Program-made: the position numbers and the translations under genes
Shown here: in pieces, positions 19,781 to 54,839 of the stretch
Position numbering within the stretch: position 1 is the stretch's first letter
Layout of the letters: the number at the start of each line of letters is the position of its first letter
Notes under the pieces: generated by a model
What the model was told of the DNA's origin: nothing
The model's input: only the letters and a program-made list of their open reading frames with translations
The model's database searches: none
NCBI RefSeq assembly: GCF_002078875.1
Contig: NC_034438.1
Coordinates: 19,929,480 to 19,993,479, forward strand
DNA: 64,000 nucleotides
From: Numida meleagris
Taxonomy: Eukaryota; Chordata; Aves; Galliformes; Numididae
Direction of reading: 5' to 3'

Positions 19781-20425
19781 TCAACTAGCCCTGCCAGCTC
19801 CTGGACTAGAATCATTTCCCCCTTTGAGAAGGAGGGGAGACCCACCCACTGCCACCAGGCCAGGTGGCAAGTAAACTGCCCCATGGCCAAAAAAACCAGA
19901 ATTCTTTCGTTTGCACCAGCCTCTCAGCCATGTATTTATGAAATGAGTTTTCCTGCTCCTTTCAGTATCTTTCTCTGCCACTGAAGGGATAGAGGAAAAT
20001 ACAATGTGTATGCCCGCTCCATCCATTAACCGACCCAGTCCCCTAAAGTCCTTTTTGATAGTCCTAAGGCTTCTTTCAGTGACTTCATTGCTGTCAGCAT
20101 GAACTATAAATAAAGGATAATAATAAGAGGGGTAAATCAGACTAGGAAGTTTCCTAGGAATATCCCTGACCTGGGCCCCAGGGAGGCAGCACACTTCCCT
20201 GCAGGCAGGGTCAGGATGACATACAGGGCCCTCCATTCCTCTCAGAAGGGAGTTGCCTATGACAGTCATCCTCCTGTCCTTCTTGGTGGAGGCAGTCTTG
20301 AGGTGCAAAGCCAACTGCCTCAACCTAGACAACCTCAAGCGTGGACCTCCCACCACATCCTTACTCACTTCTCCCTCAAGTTCCGGAGCACTAAACTTAC
20401 TACAGAGGAGCACCTGAGGAACCAA
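19781..20425 (-). pseudogene. CR1 ORF1 esterase-domain remnant
   Basis: This 214-codon open frame is the C-terminal part of CR1 ORF1, which in this family carries an SGNH/GDSL-type esterase domain. The block-I nucleophile motif is seen at residues 57-60 as G-N-S-L instead of the G-D-S-L usual for the family. The first oxyanion-hole and substrate blocks follow ('CCLPGAQVRD' about 79-88; 'IVFSSIPSVAEKD' about 141-153). The C-terminal catalytic Asp/His block is altered ('GGSPLLLKGG' about 194-203, with the expected D and H missing). The frame is unusually intact but predicted inactive. Domain assignment rests on established CR1 biology; inactivity is inferred from the changed residues. Confidence 0.85.
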
Positions 20426-20970
20426 AGTAGGTCAGGATAGGGGTTGCCTGTGACATCAAGCTGGGACCTGTTTCCACTCCTCTTCCTTTAAATCACCTTC
20501 CTCTGCTCAGTGATGGCAGAGGAGGAGGTCCACCACCATGTGGACCTCCTTCTCACATGTGCAGCAGAAAGTTACTCCACCAATCTATCTCCTGCTTGCA
20601 CTCTCCAATACTTCTTAATCTCTCCATCTCCTCCTTGAGCTTCACCACCATACTGAGCAGATCATCCAACCACTCACACCTCACTCAGGTGGAATCCCTG
20701 CCACTCTTTACCGGCAGCAACATGATCAGGCACTCTCTGCAGCCAGAGACTTGAACCACCACATTTTTAGGCAGGCACTCTGTCTGAGTCACCACATTCT
20801 TTCTTGACAGAGCTTTCTGCCTAGTGGAAACCATGGCTAGGTTTATCTGGGAGGCAACCAATAGGTGAGTCAGTCTCATGAGTGAACAGAGATACTCCGC
20901 CCTCCTCACCCTCCCTGCTCGTCTGCCCTGCGCAAACTGCCTGCACAAATTATTCATATATAGTAATGCC

Positions 20971-24375: not shown

Positions 24376-24393
24376 TGGCGCCCGAACAGGGAC
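24376..24393 (+). promoter_or_regulatory. Primer binding site for tRNA-Lys3
   Basis: TGGCGCCCGAACAGGGAC is a perfect complement to the 18-nt 3' end of tRNA-Lys3. It is preceded by the LTR end and the dinucleotide AG. This is the primer class used by betaretroviruses and lentiviruses, not by avian alpharetroviruses (tRNA-Trp), and it supports the family call. Confidence 0.95.
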
Positions 24394-30541: not shown

Positions 30542-31103
30542 TGTCATGGTTTTATGTTTTTTATGTTTTTTGGTTTAGTATTCCACATCATAACATTATG
30601 TAGTGCACTGGGAGTTAAAGAGTTAATGCTCCAATTCCATGGGTCATGGATACTTCCGGGTACCTGGTTCTCAGAAGAGGAGAACTTCATTTCCCAGAGG
30701 ACTGCTCACTGTTCTGTTACTGTCTTCATTCAGAGGGAAAGATAAAAACTGCTTGCATATCACGAGACGTCCCTTTTCCCTTCTCTTCCCTCCTCCTCGT
30801 CCTGGAAATGTCTCTCTCCCTAGCCATCTCACCGCCAGCACTAGAGTAAGGCCTTGCGGTTTTTGGACACTCTCTCTCATTTTATTTGATTTATTAGCTT
30901 CAATTTTAATTGTATTATATAGTGTTATTTTGCATTCCAATATATTATTTAGTAAATTAGTTTGTTTCTCCTCAGATCATTGCCGCTGTTTTGTTTTTAG
31001 GCCCATCTCCCTACCCTTTTCCTTTTCACACGGAGTGGGTCCGTGGGTCTCTCTGCCCCATTAGTCATGGAACCAGGCTGAACCTGCCAGTAAATCGTTG
31101 ACA
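30542..31103 (+). mobile_element. Solo ERVL-type LTR, copy 1 (5-bp target duplication)
   Basis: The LTR opens TGTCATGG and ends GTTGACA, so it has matching terminal inverted bases. It is flanked by a perfect 5-bp duplication ACCTA (30537-30541 and 31104-31108). Full LTR relatives occur at 40323-40851 and 53489-54005. The 5-bp duplication and the TGTCATGG start fit class III (ERVL-like) avian LTRs. No internal retroviral sequence remains, so it arose by LTR-LTR recombination. The plus orientation is inferred from a TATA-like element in the copy at 40.3 kb. The open frames inside it are spurious. Confidence 0.9.
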
Positions 31104-32558: not shown

Positions 32559-33668
32559 GTGACCCGCCTGGTGGATGAGGGAAAGGCTGTTGATGTGGTC
32601 TACCTAGACTTCAGCAAAGCCTTTGACACTGTCTCCCGCAGTATTCTCCTGGAGAAGCTGGCAGCCCGTGGCTTGGACAGGTACACTCTTTGCTGGGTAA
32701 GGAGCTGGCTGGAGGGCCAGGCCCAGAGAGTGGTGGTGAATGGAGTTAAATCCAGCTGGCGACGGGTCACAAGTGGTGTTCCCCAGGCGTTGGTGCTGGA
32801 GCCTGTCCTCTTCAATGTCTTTATTGATGACCTGGATGAGGGCATTGAGAGCACCCTCAGTAAGTTTGCAGACAACACCCAGCTGGCAAGAAGTGTTGAT
32901 CTGCCTGGGGGTAGAGAGGCCCTGCAGAGAGATCTGGACAGGCTGGATTTCTGGGCTGAAGCCAATGGGATGAGGTTCAACAAGACCAAGTGCCGGGTGC
33001 TGCACTTCGGCTTCAACAACCCTAGGCAATGCTACAGGCATGGGGCAGAGTGGCTGGAAGACTATGTAGAGGAAATGGACCTGGGAGTATTGGTCGACAC
33101 TCAGCTGAGCATGAGCCAGCAGTGTGCCCAGGTGGCCAAGAAGGCCAATGGCATCCTGGCTTGTATCAGAAATAGTGTTGCCAGTAGGAGCAGGGAAGTA
33201 ATTGTCCCTCTGTACTCAGCCCTGGTGAGGCCACACCTCAAGTACTGTGTCCAGTTTTGGGCCCCCCACTGCAAGAAAGACATAGAGGCCCTGGAGCATG
33301 TTCAGAGGAGGGCAGCGAAGCTGGTGAGGGGTCTGGAGCACAGGCCTTATGAGGAGCGGCTGAGGGAGCTGGGATTGTTCAGTCTGGAGAAGAGGAGGCT
33401 CAGGGGAGACCTTATCGCTCTCTATAACCACCCGACGGGAGGTTGTAGTGAGCTGGGGGTCGGCTTCTTCTCTCTCGTAACTAGTGACAGGACGAGGGGG
33501 AATGTCCTCAAGTTGCGCCAGGGTAGATTTAGGCTGGACATTAGGAAATACTACTTTTCTGAAAGAATGGTCAGGCACTGGAACGGGCTGCCCAGGGAGG
33601 TGGTTGAGTCACTGTCCCTGGAGATGTTCAAGAAACATTTAGATATAGTGTTGAGAGATATGGTTTAG
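32559..33668 (+). pseudogene. CR1 ORF2: reverse-transcriptase palm, thumb and C-terminus
   Basis: This 369-codon frame continues ORF2 after a shift and an in-frame TGA near 32557. It has the A box '[12 protein letters not shown]' (residues 15-26, first catalytic Asp present) and the B box '[14 protein letters not shown]' (73-86, with two Gly replaced by Ala and Glu). The catalytic C box reads 'KFADNTQLA' (102-110), so the usual A-D-D is A-D-N. The CR1 C-terminal region follows with '[19 protein letters not shown]', '[14 protein letters not shown]' and '[11 protein letters not shown]'. It ends at TAG 33666-33668. The Asp-to-Asn change and the upstream breaks predict an inactive enzyme. Confidence 0.92.
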
Positions 33669-33691: not shown

Positions 33692-33718
33692 TGGACACAG
33701 TACTCGAGGTGTGGCCTC
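33692..33718 (-). mobile_element. 27-bp inverted CR1 scrap
   Basis: This segment is the reverse complement of CR1 coding sequence present at 33227-33253 in the element just upstream (26 of 27 bases agree, from 'gaggccacacctc' to 'gtgtcca'). It starts exactly where the plus-strand CR1 stops. The two form an inverted repeat with 438 bp between them. Confidence 0.8.
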
Positions 33719-34126
33719 TGAATCAGCAGGAGTCGTTGTATCCTTTATTACGTAATGTTTCCGGGGTGGAAACCGGAGAAGGCTGTACGCACCCATCAAG
33801 GGGCGGACCATCCACGCCGGCACCACCCGGCCCCCTTGAGGGGGCAGCGCCGCCCGGCCTGCCCGGGGGAGGGGTTACATCGGAAAAGGCAATGATGCAA
33901 GGGGGCGGGACCGATGGGCGTACCAATGGGCGTACCTTTGGGCGGGCTCAGAACGCTGATTGGTCAGAGATAGTGCAGGGCTTGACTGCACAACCCCTGT
34001 CTCCGCCCATGGGGACGTTCGGGGGAAGCGGGCAACTGGCCGTGGAGTGGCATAGAGCTGGAGCCCTCTGTAGCTGCTGCAGCCGTGCCGCACCACACCA
34101 CACAGCTCCAACCAGAAGTCCAGCAT
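33719..34126 (-). mobile_element. CpG-rich LTR-like block
   Basis: This GC- and CpG-rich segment reads like an LTR promoter on the minus strand. A CCAAT box ('gaccaatcagcg') is followed by GC boxes, a run of 12-bp units containing 'ggtacgcccat' (33913-33948), and finally AATAAAG about 25 bases before 'ctgattca'. The plus strand begins TGAATCAG at 33719. No primer binding site, polypurine tract or target duplication was found at either end. Alternatives are a host CpG-rich promoter fragment. Ends are approximate. Confidence 0.45.
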
Positions 34127-34200
34127 GCATGGATAGCTCAGTTGGTAGAGTGTGAGACTCCTAATCCTCAGGGTTGTGGGTTTGAGTCCCACGCTGGGCA
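34127..34200 (+). pseudogene. tRNA-Lys-like pseudogene
   Basis: The sequence aligns end to end with vertebrate tRNA-Lys. The A box 'TAGCTCAGTTGG' and B box 'GGTTTGAGTCC' are intact, as are the D arm and a perfect 5-bp T stem. Defects: two mismatches in the acceptor stem (positions 3 and 7), one extra C in the 3' side of the anticodon arm, and CCT where tRNA-Lys(CTT) has CTT. No CCA is encoded, as expected for a nuclear tRNA gene copy. A TTTT that could end pol III transcription lies at 34223-34226. I judge it a decayed tRNA-Lys copy that may still bind TFIIIC. Confidence 0.75.
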
Positions 34201-34990
34201 TCTGTCCCTGAATGATTAAATCCTTTTGTGATCAGTTAAAGGGATCAGACCTCAGGCCTGATATTCATGCATTTTTGGCTACCTGGCAGGGGCTAGTGGT
34301 TTGGCAGGATTTAAGCAATGTTTGGGAAACTGCTGTCTTTATTGATCGGACAGTCAGTGTGCAATTGCTCAAAGTAAGGGCTATTGCATTAGCAATGTGC
34401 TTGTGGCATGAGGTGCCTTGTAACATTGTCATGGGTTCAGCTTTTGCAGCTAGGCTGCTGGCTCGTATGGGCCAGGAAGGACATCCTAGCTTGGATGTGC
34501 CAGGCTTTTTTACTACTGGAAATGCTATTGCTGACAGAGAAGCCAGCATGCTTGTTTTTACAGTTCAAGAGGTTTGCGATTCTACCCTTTATGTGGGTGC
34601 CCGTGTGCTGGTAAGAATCTGTTCCATCCCTTTGTCTGTAGCCTGGGTTGTTGTTCACACATGCCCTCACTGTAATTCTACACCTAAGATAGGTGCAGGA
34701 GTTAACCCTTGCAGCCTCGGACCCATGCAGGTCTGGCAGACAGATTTCACTTGGGAACAGTGTTTCTTCCCCCCGCGCCTGGCTTGCAGTTACGATAGAT
34801 ACTTCCTCCACTGTTATCATGGCCACACAGCATGCGAAGTCCAAGTCAACTGTGGAACGTGTTAATTGCCTCCTTAAGGAAAAAACACATATCCTTGGGG
34901 AGGGGGAAGGATATAGGGGGAAGATACCTGTCGGCAGGCATTTTATGCATTGAATTATTTCAAACGTGGTGACAACAGGTGAACCCCTCA
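34201..34990 (+). pseudogene. Retroviral pol remnant (RNase H end and integrase)
   Basis: An open frame at 34212-34865 resembles the end of the reverse transcriptase/RNase H and the start of integrase of an alpharetrovirus-like element. Visible are the His/Cys zinc-binding end 'VVVHTCPHCNSTPKIG' and 'QVWQTDFTW', which holds the first catalytic Asp of the integrase DDE triad. A frame change follows. The next frame goes from 'WLAVTIDTS' and 'MATQHAKSK' directly to 'STVERVNCLLKEK', which carries the catalytic Glu. The stretch with the second Asp has been deleted. Further decayed integrase sequence runs to about 34990. Not functional. Confidence 0.8.
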
Positions 34991-35302: not shown

Positions 35303-35553
35303 TGTAGTAGGCAGCGACCGAAAGTACGGGATGTGACGCATTAGGACCTCCCCTGCCTAGCACCTGTGGGCGTAGATGAAGCTAACGAGGTGATAAGGAA
35401 GCATATATAAGACATTGTAACGATGCAATAAACGCCATTTTGCCGCTCATCATATTGATGTGTGCATGCGTCAGGATGGTCGGGGACTAGGAGTAGTCCT
35501 TTCAAACAGGGTGACAGTTCACGAACGGAATATCCAATGTGGTGAACGCCACA
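35303..35553 (+). mobile_element. Solo alpharetrovirus-like LTR, copy 1 (6-bp target duplication)
   Basis: A 251-bp LTR begins TGTAGTAGG and ends CCACA. It is flanked by a perfect 6-bp duplication TATCCC (35297-35302 and 35554-35559). It carries a TATA box (TATATAA about 35404-35410) and AATAAACGCCATTTTGCC (signal at 35427-35432), closely matching the copy at 39738-39999. Six-base duplications and the AATAAACGCC signature fit the alpharetrovirus/EAV group. No internal sequence remains. It interrupts the 3' end of the minus-strand provirus between env and its polypurine tract, so it is younger than that element. Confidence 0.92.
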
Positions 35554-35720
35554 TATCCCTAAGCCTATCTTTTAACTAAGCTATCTACTATTAAAATTCT
35601 ATCACACATGCATAATATAAATGCATATGTCATTACTAGCTGTCCTAAAACTTACTACAAGCTTTCACACAGCCTATGGTGTTTTAGGCTGATCTAAAAC
35701 TTCATCATACACTGTAAGCA

Positions 35721-35748
35721 AAGTTTTCGTAGTGTAGTGGTTATCACG
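35721..35748 (+). pseudogene. Inserted 5' fragment of tRNA-Val
   Basis: Bases 35723-35748 match the first 26 nucleotides of vertebrate tRNA-Val (AAC/CAC type) with one difference (T for C at tRNA position 5). They include the whole 5' acceptor strand and the D arm with the A box. The piece, plus two A residues, is flanked by 9-bp direct repeats CTGTAAGCA (35712-35720 and 35749-35757). It therefore looks like an insertion of a truncated tRNA into retroviral env debris. No B box is present, so it cannot be a pol III gene. Confidence 0.8.
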
Positions 35749-35759
35749 CTGTAAGCATC

Positions 35760-36420
35760 GCTGTATGCATCCTACAAAGCAAGGTGTGCATAGCATTATA
35801 ACAATAAGCATTAGAAACCTTATACCTAATCCTCTAAGTATCTATGCAAGCCATGGTCCCAGTCCTCTAAACAAGGACCATAGCCAGCCCTTAATGGAAT
35901 CATCACCTATTCATGAACACCTGACTTTTGAGCCATGTCAAGCAAATAGACTCCATGTGGATGACAAGACGCTCAGAGTAATCAAGCCTCCTTGCTCATT
36001 TTCCATGCTGCACAAAATGCTGTTCTGGGTGTGCAGCACCAAGGCTAAGTCGAAAGCAGATGGTCACTTCGAAGAATGATTCTCGAAGAAATCTGCGGTT
36101 CCTTGTCAAGGTCTTCTTTCCGCTTGAGCTTGCTGGGCTTAGGTCCTTCCATCAGCAGTTCCTGCAAATAAAAACCTCAAGCCCTAACATCCATGGCCTT
36201 AAGCCTGAAGAGAGATCTATAGCTGCTCTATTCTACAAAAGCGCGTATCACACACTATTCAAATCTTCTAACATTACATCAAGCATCATCAGGTTAGCTT
36301 GCTTGACCATCCAGCAAGCCATTCTTTCTATTGACATGCTAAACAAAAGAAAGATACAAGGCAAACATAGCATAATGACATGAAATACTGCCAAAACCAT
36401 TTAAAGGATGAACACTTGTT
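35760..36420 (-). pseudogene. Retroviral env transmembrane-subunit remnant
   Basis: On the minus strand, stop-ridden but recognisable Env TM sequence appears in order. There is a heptad-type segment ('ACWMVKQANLMMLDVMLEDL', about 36330-36265), an 'NRAAID' segment, then later 'IKGWLWSLFRGLGPW'. These are followed by a hydrophobic anchor ('FLMLIVIMLC') and a Cys-containing tail near 35765. Several stop codons break it. This layout matches the alpharetrovirus-type TM and agrees with the polypurine tract and U3 downstream on the same strand. The surface subunit, if present, would lie above 36420 and is not recognisable. Confidence 0.65.
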
Positions 36421-37002
36421 TGGCCCATGGCCCAAGGCTACAATCTGGAAAAGAGTCCCTAAGGGTCCCATTCTGTGTGTAGCTGTAACTGATTAGAGAG
36501 AATCTTCAACTTTTGTATACTCTGATATATTGCTTTTGAATGATCTTGCAGCTATAGACACAACTATCTACTCCCTTAAAACTATCAGAATACCTCATTC
36601 TATCCCAAAATCATTCTATAGTACAGAGTCATCCCATTACCTGCGATTCTTTTCCAGGTTTTACCTTTACAAATTAAGAAAATGCCAATTAACAGGCTAA
36701 TAACATCATAACCAAGAATTACTGATAATGAAGTGGTAAAATAACACTAAAAGAGCTATTCCCATAAATTCTAGCACTGGTAACATCAAATCCTGTTCAT
36801 TCACATTCTATCCTACTACTAAAATAGAAGCAGCACACAGTAACCTAACTTATGCCTAATAATTCTAATTCTTGAGGCTGCATTGCTAACACAGGAAAAT
36901 CACCTACTTCACCATACCATTACTAGGGTTGTTATAATAACACCATCCTGTGAATAGTGCAGCCTTTTTCATCACTCACTGTAGTATCTGTAGTGCAACA
37001 GA
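36421..37002. other. Low-G (plus strand) sequence, possibly decayed env
   Basis: No frame or domain is recognisable. The plus strand is rich in A and C and poor in G, continuing the composition of the minus-strand env remnant. It may therefore be the decayed surface-subunit region. This is inference only. Confidence 0.3.
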
Positions 37003-39737: not shown

Positions 39738-39999
39738 TGTAGGTGGCAACCGAAGGTACGGGATGGGATGCGATAGGACAGGACCTCCCCTGCCCAGAGC
39801 TTGTGGGCGTAGACGAAGCGAACAAAGAGATAAGGGAGATAAGGAAGGATATATAAGACTTTGTAACGATGCAATAAACGCCATTTTGCCGCTCACCATA
39901 TTGGTGTGTGCATGCGTCAGGATGGTCGGGGACTAGGTGTTAGTCCTTGCAAACAGGGTGCAGTTCACGAATGGAATATCTGGTGCTGAGTAGTCAGCA
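39738..39999 (+). mobile_element. Solo alpharetrovirus-like LTR, copy 2 (6-bp target duplication)
   Basis: A 262-bp LTR begins TGTAGGTGG and ends TCAGCA. It is flanked by a perfect 6-bp duplication CCCAGG (39732-39737 and 40000-40005). It has a TATA box 'atatataag' (about 39849-39857) and AATAAACGCCATTTTGCC (signal 39873-39878), matching the copy at 35303 over nearly its whole length. It sits inside CR1 ORF1. The intact CR1 at 20165-20195 shows the unoccupied sequence 'ggccccagggaggcag', which confirms the exact insertion point. Confidence 0.95.
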
Positions 40000-40322: not shown

Positions 40323-40851
40323 TGTCATGGTTTTGTGATTTTCAGTTATTGGTATTCCACATCATAACATCAAGTAGTGGATGTACCTGGTTCTCAGAAG
40401 AGAAGGACTACTACATTCCCCACGGTACTTTGCTCCTCTGTTACCATTTTCCAGCCGGAGGGAAAAGATAAAAGCTCGCAGTATAAAAACTTGCAGATCA
40501 CGAGACCTCGTCCCTTTTTCCGCCGTCTCTCGTCTTGGCAGCACCTCGCTCTCCAGCCGTCTTATTGTCGGTAGTAGAGTAAGGCCTACCTTGATTTTGG
40601 GACATTCTCTCTCTCTGTATTGGATTGATCAGCTTAAATTGTAATTATATTGTATTATAATGTGTTGTTTTTCATTCTGATATCTTATTTAGTAAATTAG
40701 TTTGTTTCTCCTCAGATTGTTGCCGCTGTTCTTTGCTCTCAGGGCCATCTCCTTACCCTTTTCCCCTTTTCCCTTTTCCCGGGGCGTGGGCCTGTGGATC
40801 CCCTGTCCCCTTCGTCACGGAACCGGGCCGAATGCCCGTAAACCGTTGACA
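40323..40851 (+). mobile_element. Solo ERVL-type LTR, copy 2
   Basis: A 529-bp LTR begins TGTCATGG and ends GTTGACA, inserted in CR1 ORF1. The flanks are CAGGT (40318-40322) and CAGGG (40852-40856), a 5-bp duplication with one difference. It contains GATAAAAG and a TATAAAA box (40482-40488) in a short segment missing from copy 3. It is close in sequence to copy 3 (53489-54005) and more distant from copy 1 (30542-31103). Solo LTR without internal sequence. Confidence 0.9.
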
Positions 40852-41285
40852 CAGGGCAGGGGGTCTACCACTGTTAGGGATGTATCGCCCCGGTGCCTTT
40901 CTCACAGGTATGTCAGGGAGTTACTCCACAAATCTTTTTCCTGCTCACACTCTCTGGTGCTCCGTAACTTCTCCACCTCCTCCTTGAGTTCTGCCAACAG
41001 ACTGAGCAGATCATCCAGCTGCTCACACTTCACTCAGGTGGTACCCCTGCTGCCCTTCACCGGTAGCAGCAGGTTCAGGCACTCCCAGCATACAGAGACC
41101 TGAACTGCCACATTCTTGAGCAGGCCCTCTGTCTGGATCACCACATTCTTTTTTTGGTCAGACCTTTCTGCCTAGTGGAGACCACGGCTAGATTTGTAGT
41201 CTGGGTGGCAGCCAGTAGATGAGCTGGTCTCTCGAGTGTGAAGAGATAGCACGCCCTCCCTCCTCAAACTGTGTGCACAGACTCT

Positions 41286-53488: not shown

Positions 53489-54005
53489 TGTCATGGTTTT
53501 GTGATTTTCGGTTATTGGTATTCCACATCATAACATCATGTAGTGAATGTACCTGGTTCTCAGAAGAGAAGGACTACTACATTTCCCAGGGTACTTTGCT
53601 CCTCTGTTACCATTTCCAGACAGAGGGAAAAGATAAAAGCTTGCAGATCACGAGACCTTGTCCCTTTTTTTTCTGCCGTCTCTCGTCTTGGCAGCACCTC
53701 GCTCTCCAGCTGTCTAATTGTTGGTAGTAGAGTAAGGCCTACCTTGATTTTGGGACATTCTCTCTCTCTGTATTGGATTGATCAGCTTAAATTGTAATTA
53801 TATTGTATAATAGTGTGTTGTTTTTCATTCTGATATCTTATTTAGTAAATTAGTTTGTTTCTCCTCAGATTGTTGCCGCTGTTCTTTGCTCTCAGGGCCA
53901 TCTCCTTACCCTTTTTTCCCTTTTTCCTTTTCCTGGGGCATGGGCCCATGGGTCTCCCATCCCATTCGTCATGGAACTGGGCTGAATGCCCGTAAACCGT
54001 TGACA
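53489..54005 (+). mobile_element. Solo ERVL-type LTR, copy 3, inside mariner
   Basis: A 517-bp LTR begins TGTCATGG and ends GTTGACA. It is flanked by a perfect 5-bp duplication CAGTG (53484-53488 and 54006-54010). The other mariner (25750-25767, 'gaattcaacgacacacc') shows the unoccupied site, so the insertion is dated as later than the mariner. Compared with copy 2 it lacks a 17-bp stretch that includes the TATAAAA element. Confidence 0.95.
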
Positions 54006-54839
54006 CAGTGACACACCTTCGCTTCATATGCACTTCCATGTCAGATGCCATTTTGTCAGACTGCCCCTCTGCTGCCTTCTTTCACACAGCATCAAAATGT
54101 AACAGAATATTGACAGGAAGGTTCAACCTCTACTTCCATACCACTGACATCCACCTCTGATGTTGTGGAGCAACATCTTAAAATAGGAGGCATTACTTTC
54201 AGAGCAGCCCTCGTTGGCTGAGTCTAGCTCAGAGAGATCTCAATATTCTGCCACTTCAAATTGTTTGAACCCAGTGGCATCTTGTTTTATGATGCTTGGG
54301 ATATGTCATCAAAGAACTGTCTTCAGCTACCTCTGTGCCTTGCTAACAAGGCACTTCATTGTATAGATGCACCTGTACCCACTAGGACTGTGTTGGTCTG
54401 TATGAAAGCAAATCACAAAACAAAAATAAGATCTTCAAAGAAAGAAATAGAAAAAGACCCACAAGAGGAGAGGCAAATTCTGAAAAAGTGAGAGGGAGTT
54501 CAGTGGTTATTTAAATTCTGTGCTTTCTTCACAATATCATAATGTAATTCCAAAATATTTAATCAGCTGAAATTCATTAGGCAAGAAAGAAGCCTGATAA
54601 TTATTTAAAGAAGAAAGTCTGTCTTTTGACTTCATGTAAATGTTTCTGAAAGAAGGGAGGTACTGGTTTGATCAAAATTAGAGGAGATTGTGTTTGATAT
54701 CTTGAAGCTTATATTGCTTGTTAATTCTTGTATTTCACGGTGTTAATGAAGGACAGTTGAAAATTTTCATCTTGTCCTGCTTTCAGCTGAGACAATGTTA
54801 ACAGTACATAGATATTTTGAATGTTGCTGAGTGATGAGA

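Follow-up and report, generated by a model that had tools for sequence, protein, structure and literature searches.

The window that we analysed, a 64-kb stretch of bird DNA, contains a short piece of tRNA-Val that is bracketed by direct repeats. Reading along the + strand, a 9-bp repeat, CTGTAAGCA (35712..35720), is followed by two extra bases, AA (35721..35722), then by a copy of nucleotides 1-26 of tRNA-Val(AAC/CAC) at 35723..35748, and then by a second copy of CTGTAAGCA (35749..35757). The tRNA copy includes the 5' acceptor strand, the D arm, and the hinge base 26. With the AA and the 26 tRNA-derived bases, the insert amounts to 28 nt, or to 37 nt if the second repeat is counted. The preliminary description of this locus had reported the 26 nt of the tRNA 5' end, the 28-nt length, and the perfect 9-bp repeats around it, and we found the same.

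The insert lies 188 bp past the right edge of an LTR-like block (35307..35534, + strand) that is 85% identical to 39739-39980. The latter sits within a repeat whose copy at 19945-20482 is uninterrupted, so the block behaves as an inserted LTR-like unit. Upstream of the block, 34212-34862 resembles avian alpharetroviral integrase (residues 124-188) to about 34775; the best E value is 2.1e-18, and the Pfam matches for this region are below the cut-off. Farther upstream, 2-4 kb from the insert, is CR1 reverse transcriptase sequence, and the window has related stretches elsewhere. Among the best 120 of 7996 matches for the CR1 piece at 32559-33665, golden pheasant proteins (P0046 and P0049) are 86% identical over the full length, a quail protein (P0074) is 82% identical, and proteins from stork, crane, goose, a wader, and turtles are 52-81% identical; four further matches are at 80-87%. 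Golden pheasant is the closest named species among these 120 matches, and by this protein the window most probably belongs to a galliform bird. We recognised no L1 in the window.

The insert was originally described as lying in retroviral env debris, which our results do not support. The region 35535-36700 holds 21 stop-to-stop pieces that are 28 or more amino acids long, and a comparison of the 12 longest to Pfam gave no envelope family. (Their Pfam matches were to unrelated families and were below the cut-off, with E of at least 0.09.) Also, the 113-amino-acid piece that continues out of the insert gave no candidate homologue, and the LTR-like block ends before the insert is reached. It is possible that unrecognisable retroviral sequence lies nearby. 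Pattern scans of prokaryote and viral contig collections, which are uninformative on rarity, found nothing for the flanks of the insert or for the LTR-like block. In a protein scan of the same kinds of collections with the integrase-like piece, three stretches shared a word and none was a relative.

The match to tRNA-Val is close and has sharp boundaries. 35723-35748 (+ strand) is identical to nucleotides 1-26 of both tRNA-Val(AAC) and tRNA-Val(CAC) at 25 of 26 positions, and the sole difference is C5 to T. tRNA-Val(TAC) aligns to the insert over nucleotides 8-26 only. The runner-up for the tRNA-Val 26-mer on either strand of the window matches at 16/26. If we searched with the insert's own 26-mer and allowed up to 3 mismatches, we found a single site in the 64 kb and none in 100 shuffles. 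Past nucleotide 26, the window agrees with the tRNA at just 2 of the next 14 bases, so the fragment ends sharply. (The 5' part of the reference tRNA-Val sequence agrees with published sequences; PMC4688932, PMC7555719.) In the ARAGORN fold of tRNA-Val, nucleotide 26 is the hinge base, which is unpaired and separates the D stem from the anticodon stem. The copy starts at nucleotide 1 of the mature tRNA and stops at the hinge, after the D arm, and the remainder of the 73-nt tRNA is absent. There is no oligo(A) tail, as the bases CACG directly join CTGTAAGCA. Neither ARAGORN nor Rfam calls a tRNA at the insert, which is expected for a piece of 26 nt. The insert is a real and tidy short insertion at one locus with no sign of function, and we consider it a copy without evident function. 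Its divergence is useless for dating: one difference in 26 positions corresponds to a 95% range of 0.1-20%.

The tRNA-Val 26-mer is also known as a small RNA. It makes up the first 26 bases of the zebrafish 5'tRF-Val-CAC (PMC4688932), and tRF 5019b, from tRNA-Val-CAC-2, which is tabulated among the 5' tRNA fragments of splenocytes (from mouse, judging by the abstract), is exactly this 26-mer (PMC7555719). In the searchable text of open-licence PMC papers, the 26-mer appears as a stand-alone word in PMC7555719 alone; 18 papers contain it in some form, mostly within longer strings. The insert has the same span as the tRF-5 5019b and differs from it by one base, but 5019b is an RNA from a mammalian study (PMC7555719), whereas what we have here is bird DNA only.

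The two copies of CTGTAAGCA are identical at 9/9 positions, or at 11/12 if they are extended leftward. The 3' copy directly follows the tRNA piece, and the 5' copy stops 2 nt short of it. This arrangement is rare within the window: of 63,940 start positions, 39 have a perfect 9-bp repeat that brackets a 26-nt core when a slack of up to 5 nt is allowed on either side, and two have the exact geometry, with the insert site among them. More loosely, a 9-mer that recurs within 60 bp begins at 192 of 63,900 positions across the window and at 2 of 1,000 positions in 35501-36500. We also considered a 12-bp duplication (11/12) that overlaps the last three bases of the tRNA piece. This would require one more mutation that happened to restore the tRNA base, so the 9-bp duplication is simpler.

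There is a third, imperfect copy of the repeat, CTGTATGCA (35761..35769, + strand; 8/9), which lies 12 bp on from the 3' copy of CTGTAAGCA, counted from start to start. Together with that 3' copy it forms a 12-bp imperfect tandem at 35749-35772 (10/12). In the window, 33 of 63,900 start positions have an imperfect tandem of this kind, four of them here. The presumed empty site thus already contained one good copy and one imperfect copy of the word, so the repeats could predate the insert. We take CTGTATGCA as a caution against reading the repeats as a target site duplication.

We propose that this locus arose by the RNA-templated insertion of a 5' fragment of tRNA-Val with a target duplication, which would make it a very short "tailless retropseudogene" (we would put the probability at roughly 0.6). 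That the copy starts at the mature 5' end and stops where a structural element ends speaks for an RNA template, and 9-bp repeats that are flush with the 3' end suggest a staggered break that was filled in. Of what was suggested earlier, a discrete tRNA-Val 5' fragment between perfect repeats stands and a retroviral route is very improbable; a target duplication is more probable than repair filler.

Repair filler is the main rival. In this scenario, an end-joining polymerase at a double-strand break used a short part of a tRNA-Val gene as its template (or a cDNA or small RNA was captured), and nine bases of the flank were copied next, which would make the repeat a templated copy rather than a target duplication. 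End-joining repair typically leaves short composite inserts whose repeats derive from the flank. Also, the target lacks an L1-type motif, and the near repeats of CTGTAAGCA at this locus would aid the slippage and re-annealing of ends. However, copying from a gene gives no reason to start at mature nucleotide 1 and to end at the hinge, and no base separates the insert's 3' end from the repeat. Overall, we view repair filler as a possible but somewhat unlikely explanation.

The founding paper on tailless retropseudogenes (by Schmitz et al. in 2004) is said to describe them, in its title, as mammalian-specific. The insert resembles this class in being a 5'-complete and 3'-truncated copy of a tRNA, with no A tail, a duplication of at least 8 bp, and a cut position that is single-stranded. 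The class allows up to 5 extra nucleotides at the 5' end, and the insert begins at nucleotide 1 with 2 extra nucleotides. At the 3' end the class has a truncation of at least 10 nt, and the insert stops at nucleotide 26. The duplication in this class is 8-35 nt with at least 70% identity, and the putative duplication here is 9 bp at 100%. There are also differences. The insert is from a bird, and chicken is reported to be without full-length L1. At 26 nt (28 nt with the AA), it is under the 30-nt floor of the screen by Noll et al. (PMC5322556), which is a setting and not biology. Finally, its target is CA/CTGTAAGCA, which does not match the L1-type TT/WAAAAWW (a consensus, not a filter in that screen; PMC5322556), and there is little 3' complementarity for priming, although the last three bases of the tRNA piece (ACG) resemble the three that precede the repeat (ACA).

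Noll et al. 2015 report that tailless retropseudogenes are absent in chicken, and they tie the class to L1 (PMC5322556). In their description of the screen, only 5S rRNA and U2 are named as sources for the non-human species and the minimum length is 30 nt (PMC5322556), so this screen would miss a 26-nt piece of a tRNA. Noll et al. favour internal priming, and they report that matching truncated RNAs were not found for human 5S and U2 (PMC5322556), which counts against the reading that the template was cut beforehand. In a search of open-licence PMC papers, none of the matches listed was a published bird case of such an insertion, judging by the title and the start of the abstract.

If an RNA was the template, then the starting molecule would be a tRNA-Val 5' fragment of about 26 nt, and the simplest candidate is a tRF-5 whose 3' end was at the hinge, past the D arm, before it was copied. 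A reverse transcriptase would copy the fragment at a staggered break, the copy would be sealed in, and the direct repeat of 9 bp would result from fill-in of the stagger. At the 5' junction, the AA may be non-templated bases that were added as the enzyme ran off the end of the RNA, or it may be the last bases of the pre-tRNA leader. The target has little complementarity to the tRNA from nucleotide 27 on (2/14), which suits end-to-end copying of an RNA that was already short. Combined with the non-L1 target, this favours end-to-end copying by a resident reverse transcriptase. We tentatively suggest, with much less confidence than in the RNA-templated insertion itself, that a ready-made, regulatory-size tRF-5b of tRNA-Val, rather than an internally primed whole tRNA, was retroposed in the germ line of a bird without L1, and that the agent was most likely CR1 or a different reverse transcriptase resident in the genome. 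In favour of an RNA fragment, the 26-mer is a listed tRF-5 (5019b) save for one base and the geometry is rare by chance; against it, we have a single locus and a third near repeat just 12 bp away. Something similar may occur in mammals, where truncated tRNA halves have been found joined to LINE-1 and may be cut before they are copied (PMC13174262). There too, a partial tRNA, possibly pre-cut, is copied at a LINE insertion site. In contrast, the fragment here stands alone, and the window has CR1.

The most likely enzyme would be CR1, the LINE of birds, acting in trans on an RNA that has no CR1 tail. CR1 reportedly needs its own 3' end, according to the title of a 2015 note by Suh. At the insert there is neither CR1 3' sequence nor an 8-bp tail, as the repeat abuts the tRNA piece, and this counts against CR1 as the agent. 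In its favour, CR1 sequence is present close to the insert and recurs in the window. Reports from birds point both ways. Template switching of CR1 onto tRNA has been proposed (PMC5729268), and a U6 copy in turkey adjoins a CR1-like element (PMC4476161), both of which count for CR1. However, retrocopies in chicken are few (78; PMC3136929). Of the four chicken U6 copies that Doucet et al. 2015 list as analysed, none has a duplication and none is truncated at the 3' end (PMC4476161). And the functional chicken CR1-F copy, the one that is described, has a duplication of 5 bp (PMC2734521). These observations count against a CR1-type origin.

Some tRNA pseudogenes are ordinary in birds, with about 100 per bird genome on average (PMC4378963). 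We also considered that the piece is what remains of a longer tRNA copy or of a tRNA-headed SINE, with the rest lost, or that it is a piece that lies between pre-existing repeats. Passerine birds have SINEs with tRNA heads and CR1 tails (PMC5729268), there is a near full-length tRNA-Lys-like copy 1.5 kb from the insert, and the third near repeat adjoins the site. But neither a SINE body nor a CR1 tail separates the fragment from the adjoining repeat, and the heads of the passerine SINEs are tRNA-Ile and tRNA-Asp, not tRNA-Val (PMC5729268). TguSINE1 and PittSINE are like the insert in that tRNA sequence was mobilised in birds, which is credited to CR1 (PMC5729268); they differ in being families with tRNA heads (Ile, Asp) and CR1 tails, while the insert has no tail and is present as a single copy in the window. 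We consider a remnant to be quite unlikely.

A retroviral by-product is another candidate: a tRNA fragment in the particle of the neighbouring alpharetrovirus-like element, for example, might be reverse transcribed and then inserted by integrase. Integrase-like sequence and an LTR-like block do lie within about 1 kb upstream of the insert. But retroviral priming copies the 3' end of the primer tRNA, not the 5' end. By eye, we saw no LTR ends at the junctions of the insert (about 35700-35770). Moreover, integrase duplications are 4-6 bp (PMC4422553) and the duplication here is 9 bp, which is too long, so we reject retroviral integrase as the agent. The by-product explanation as a whole is very improbable.

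The absence from chicken was taken by Noll et al. as backing for the L1 dependence of tailless retropseudogenes (PMC5322556). A clear case from a galliform, if true, would imply that some non-L1 reverse transcriptase can make them, and if the target duplication is confirmed, then the insert would be new as a short variant of the tailless retropseudogene, in a bird. The end of the insert coincides exactly with that of a catalogued tRNA fragment, so a clear case would also reopen the question of pre-cut RNA versus internal priming. If a ready-made tRNA fragment was indeed retroposed, very short insertions of this kind would be a class that was overlooked under the length floor of the earlier screen, and they could be a fossil record of the small RNAs in ancestral germ cells. 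This raises a genome-wide question: are tRNA 5' fragments of under 30 nt with short duplications found above chance in birds, and do their ends correspond to those of germ-line tRFs?

We also note several other features in the window. The tRNA-Lys-like sequence is at 34127-34200 (+ strand), just upstream of the alpharetrovirus-like pol/integrase sequence. It is near full-length, with an Rfam tRNA score of 40.8 bits and a damaged 5' acceptor strand, and it is 86% identical to nucleotides 8-72 of tRNA-Lys(CTT). A search of about 40 bp on its flanks for perfect repeats of 6-15 bp found none. Another sequence, 24376-24393 (+ strand), is complementary to the 3' end of tRNA-Lys(TTT) and may be where a primer tRNA bound in an endogenous retrovirus (a primer binding site); this is a 15-nt match at 24379-24393 that was extended by eye. 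On the - strand, about 36060-36161 is exon-like, with a splice acceptor that is plausible by eye, and encodes the peptide ELLMEGPKPSKLKRKEDLDKEPQISSRIILRS, for which a search for the identity of a host gene gave no match in Pfam or PDB. Also on the - strand, about 33700-34125 is GC-rich and by eye looks like an antisense LTR (with AATAAA on the minus strand), with the CR1 fragment and the tRNA-Lys-like sequence on either side. Finally, there are three related blocks of about 440-530 bp (30660-31103, 40323-40854, and 53489-54008), which form a repeat family and are perhaps LTRs; 40323-40854 and 53489-54008 are 91% identical.
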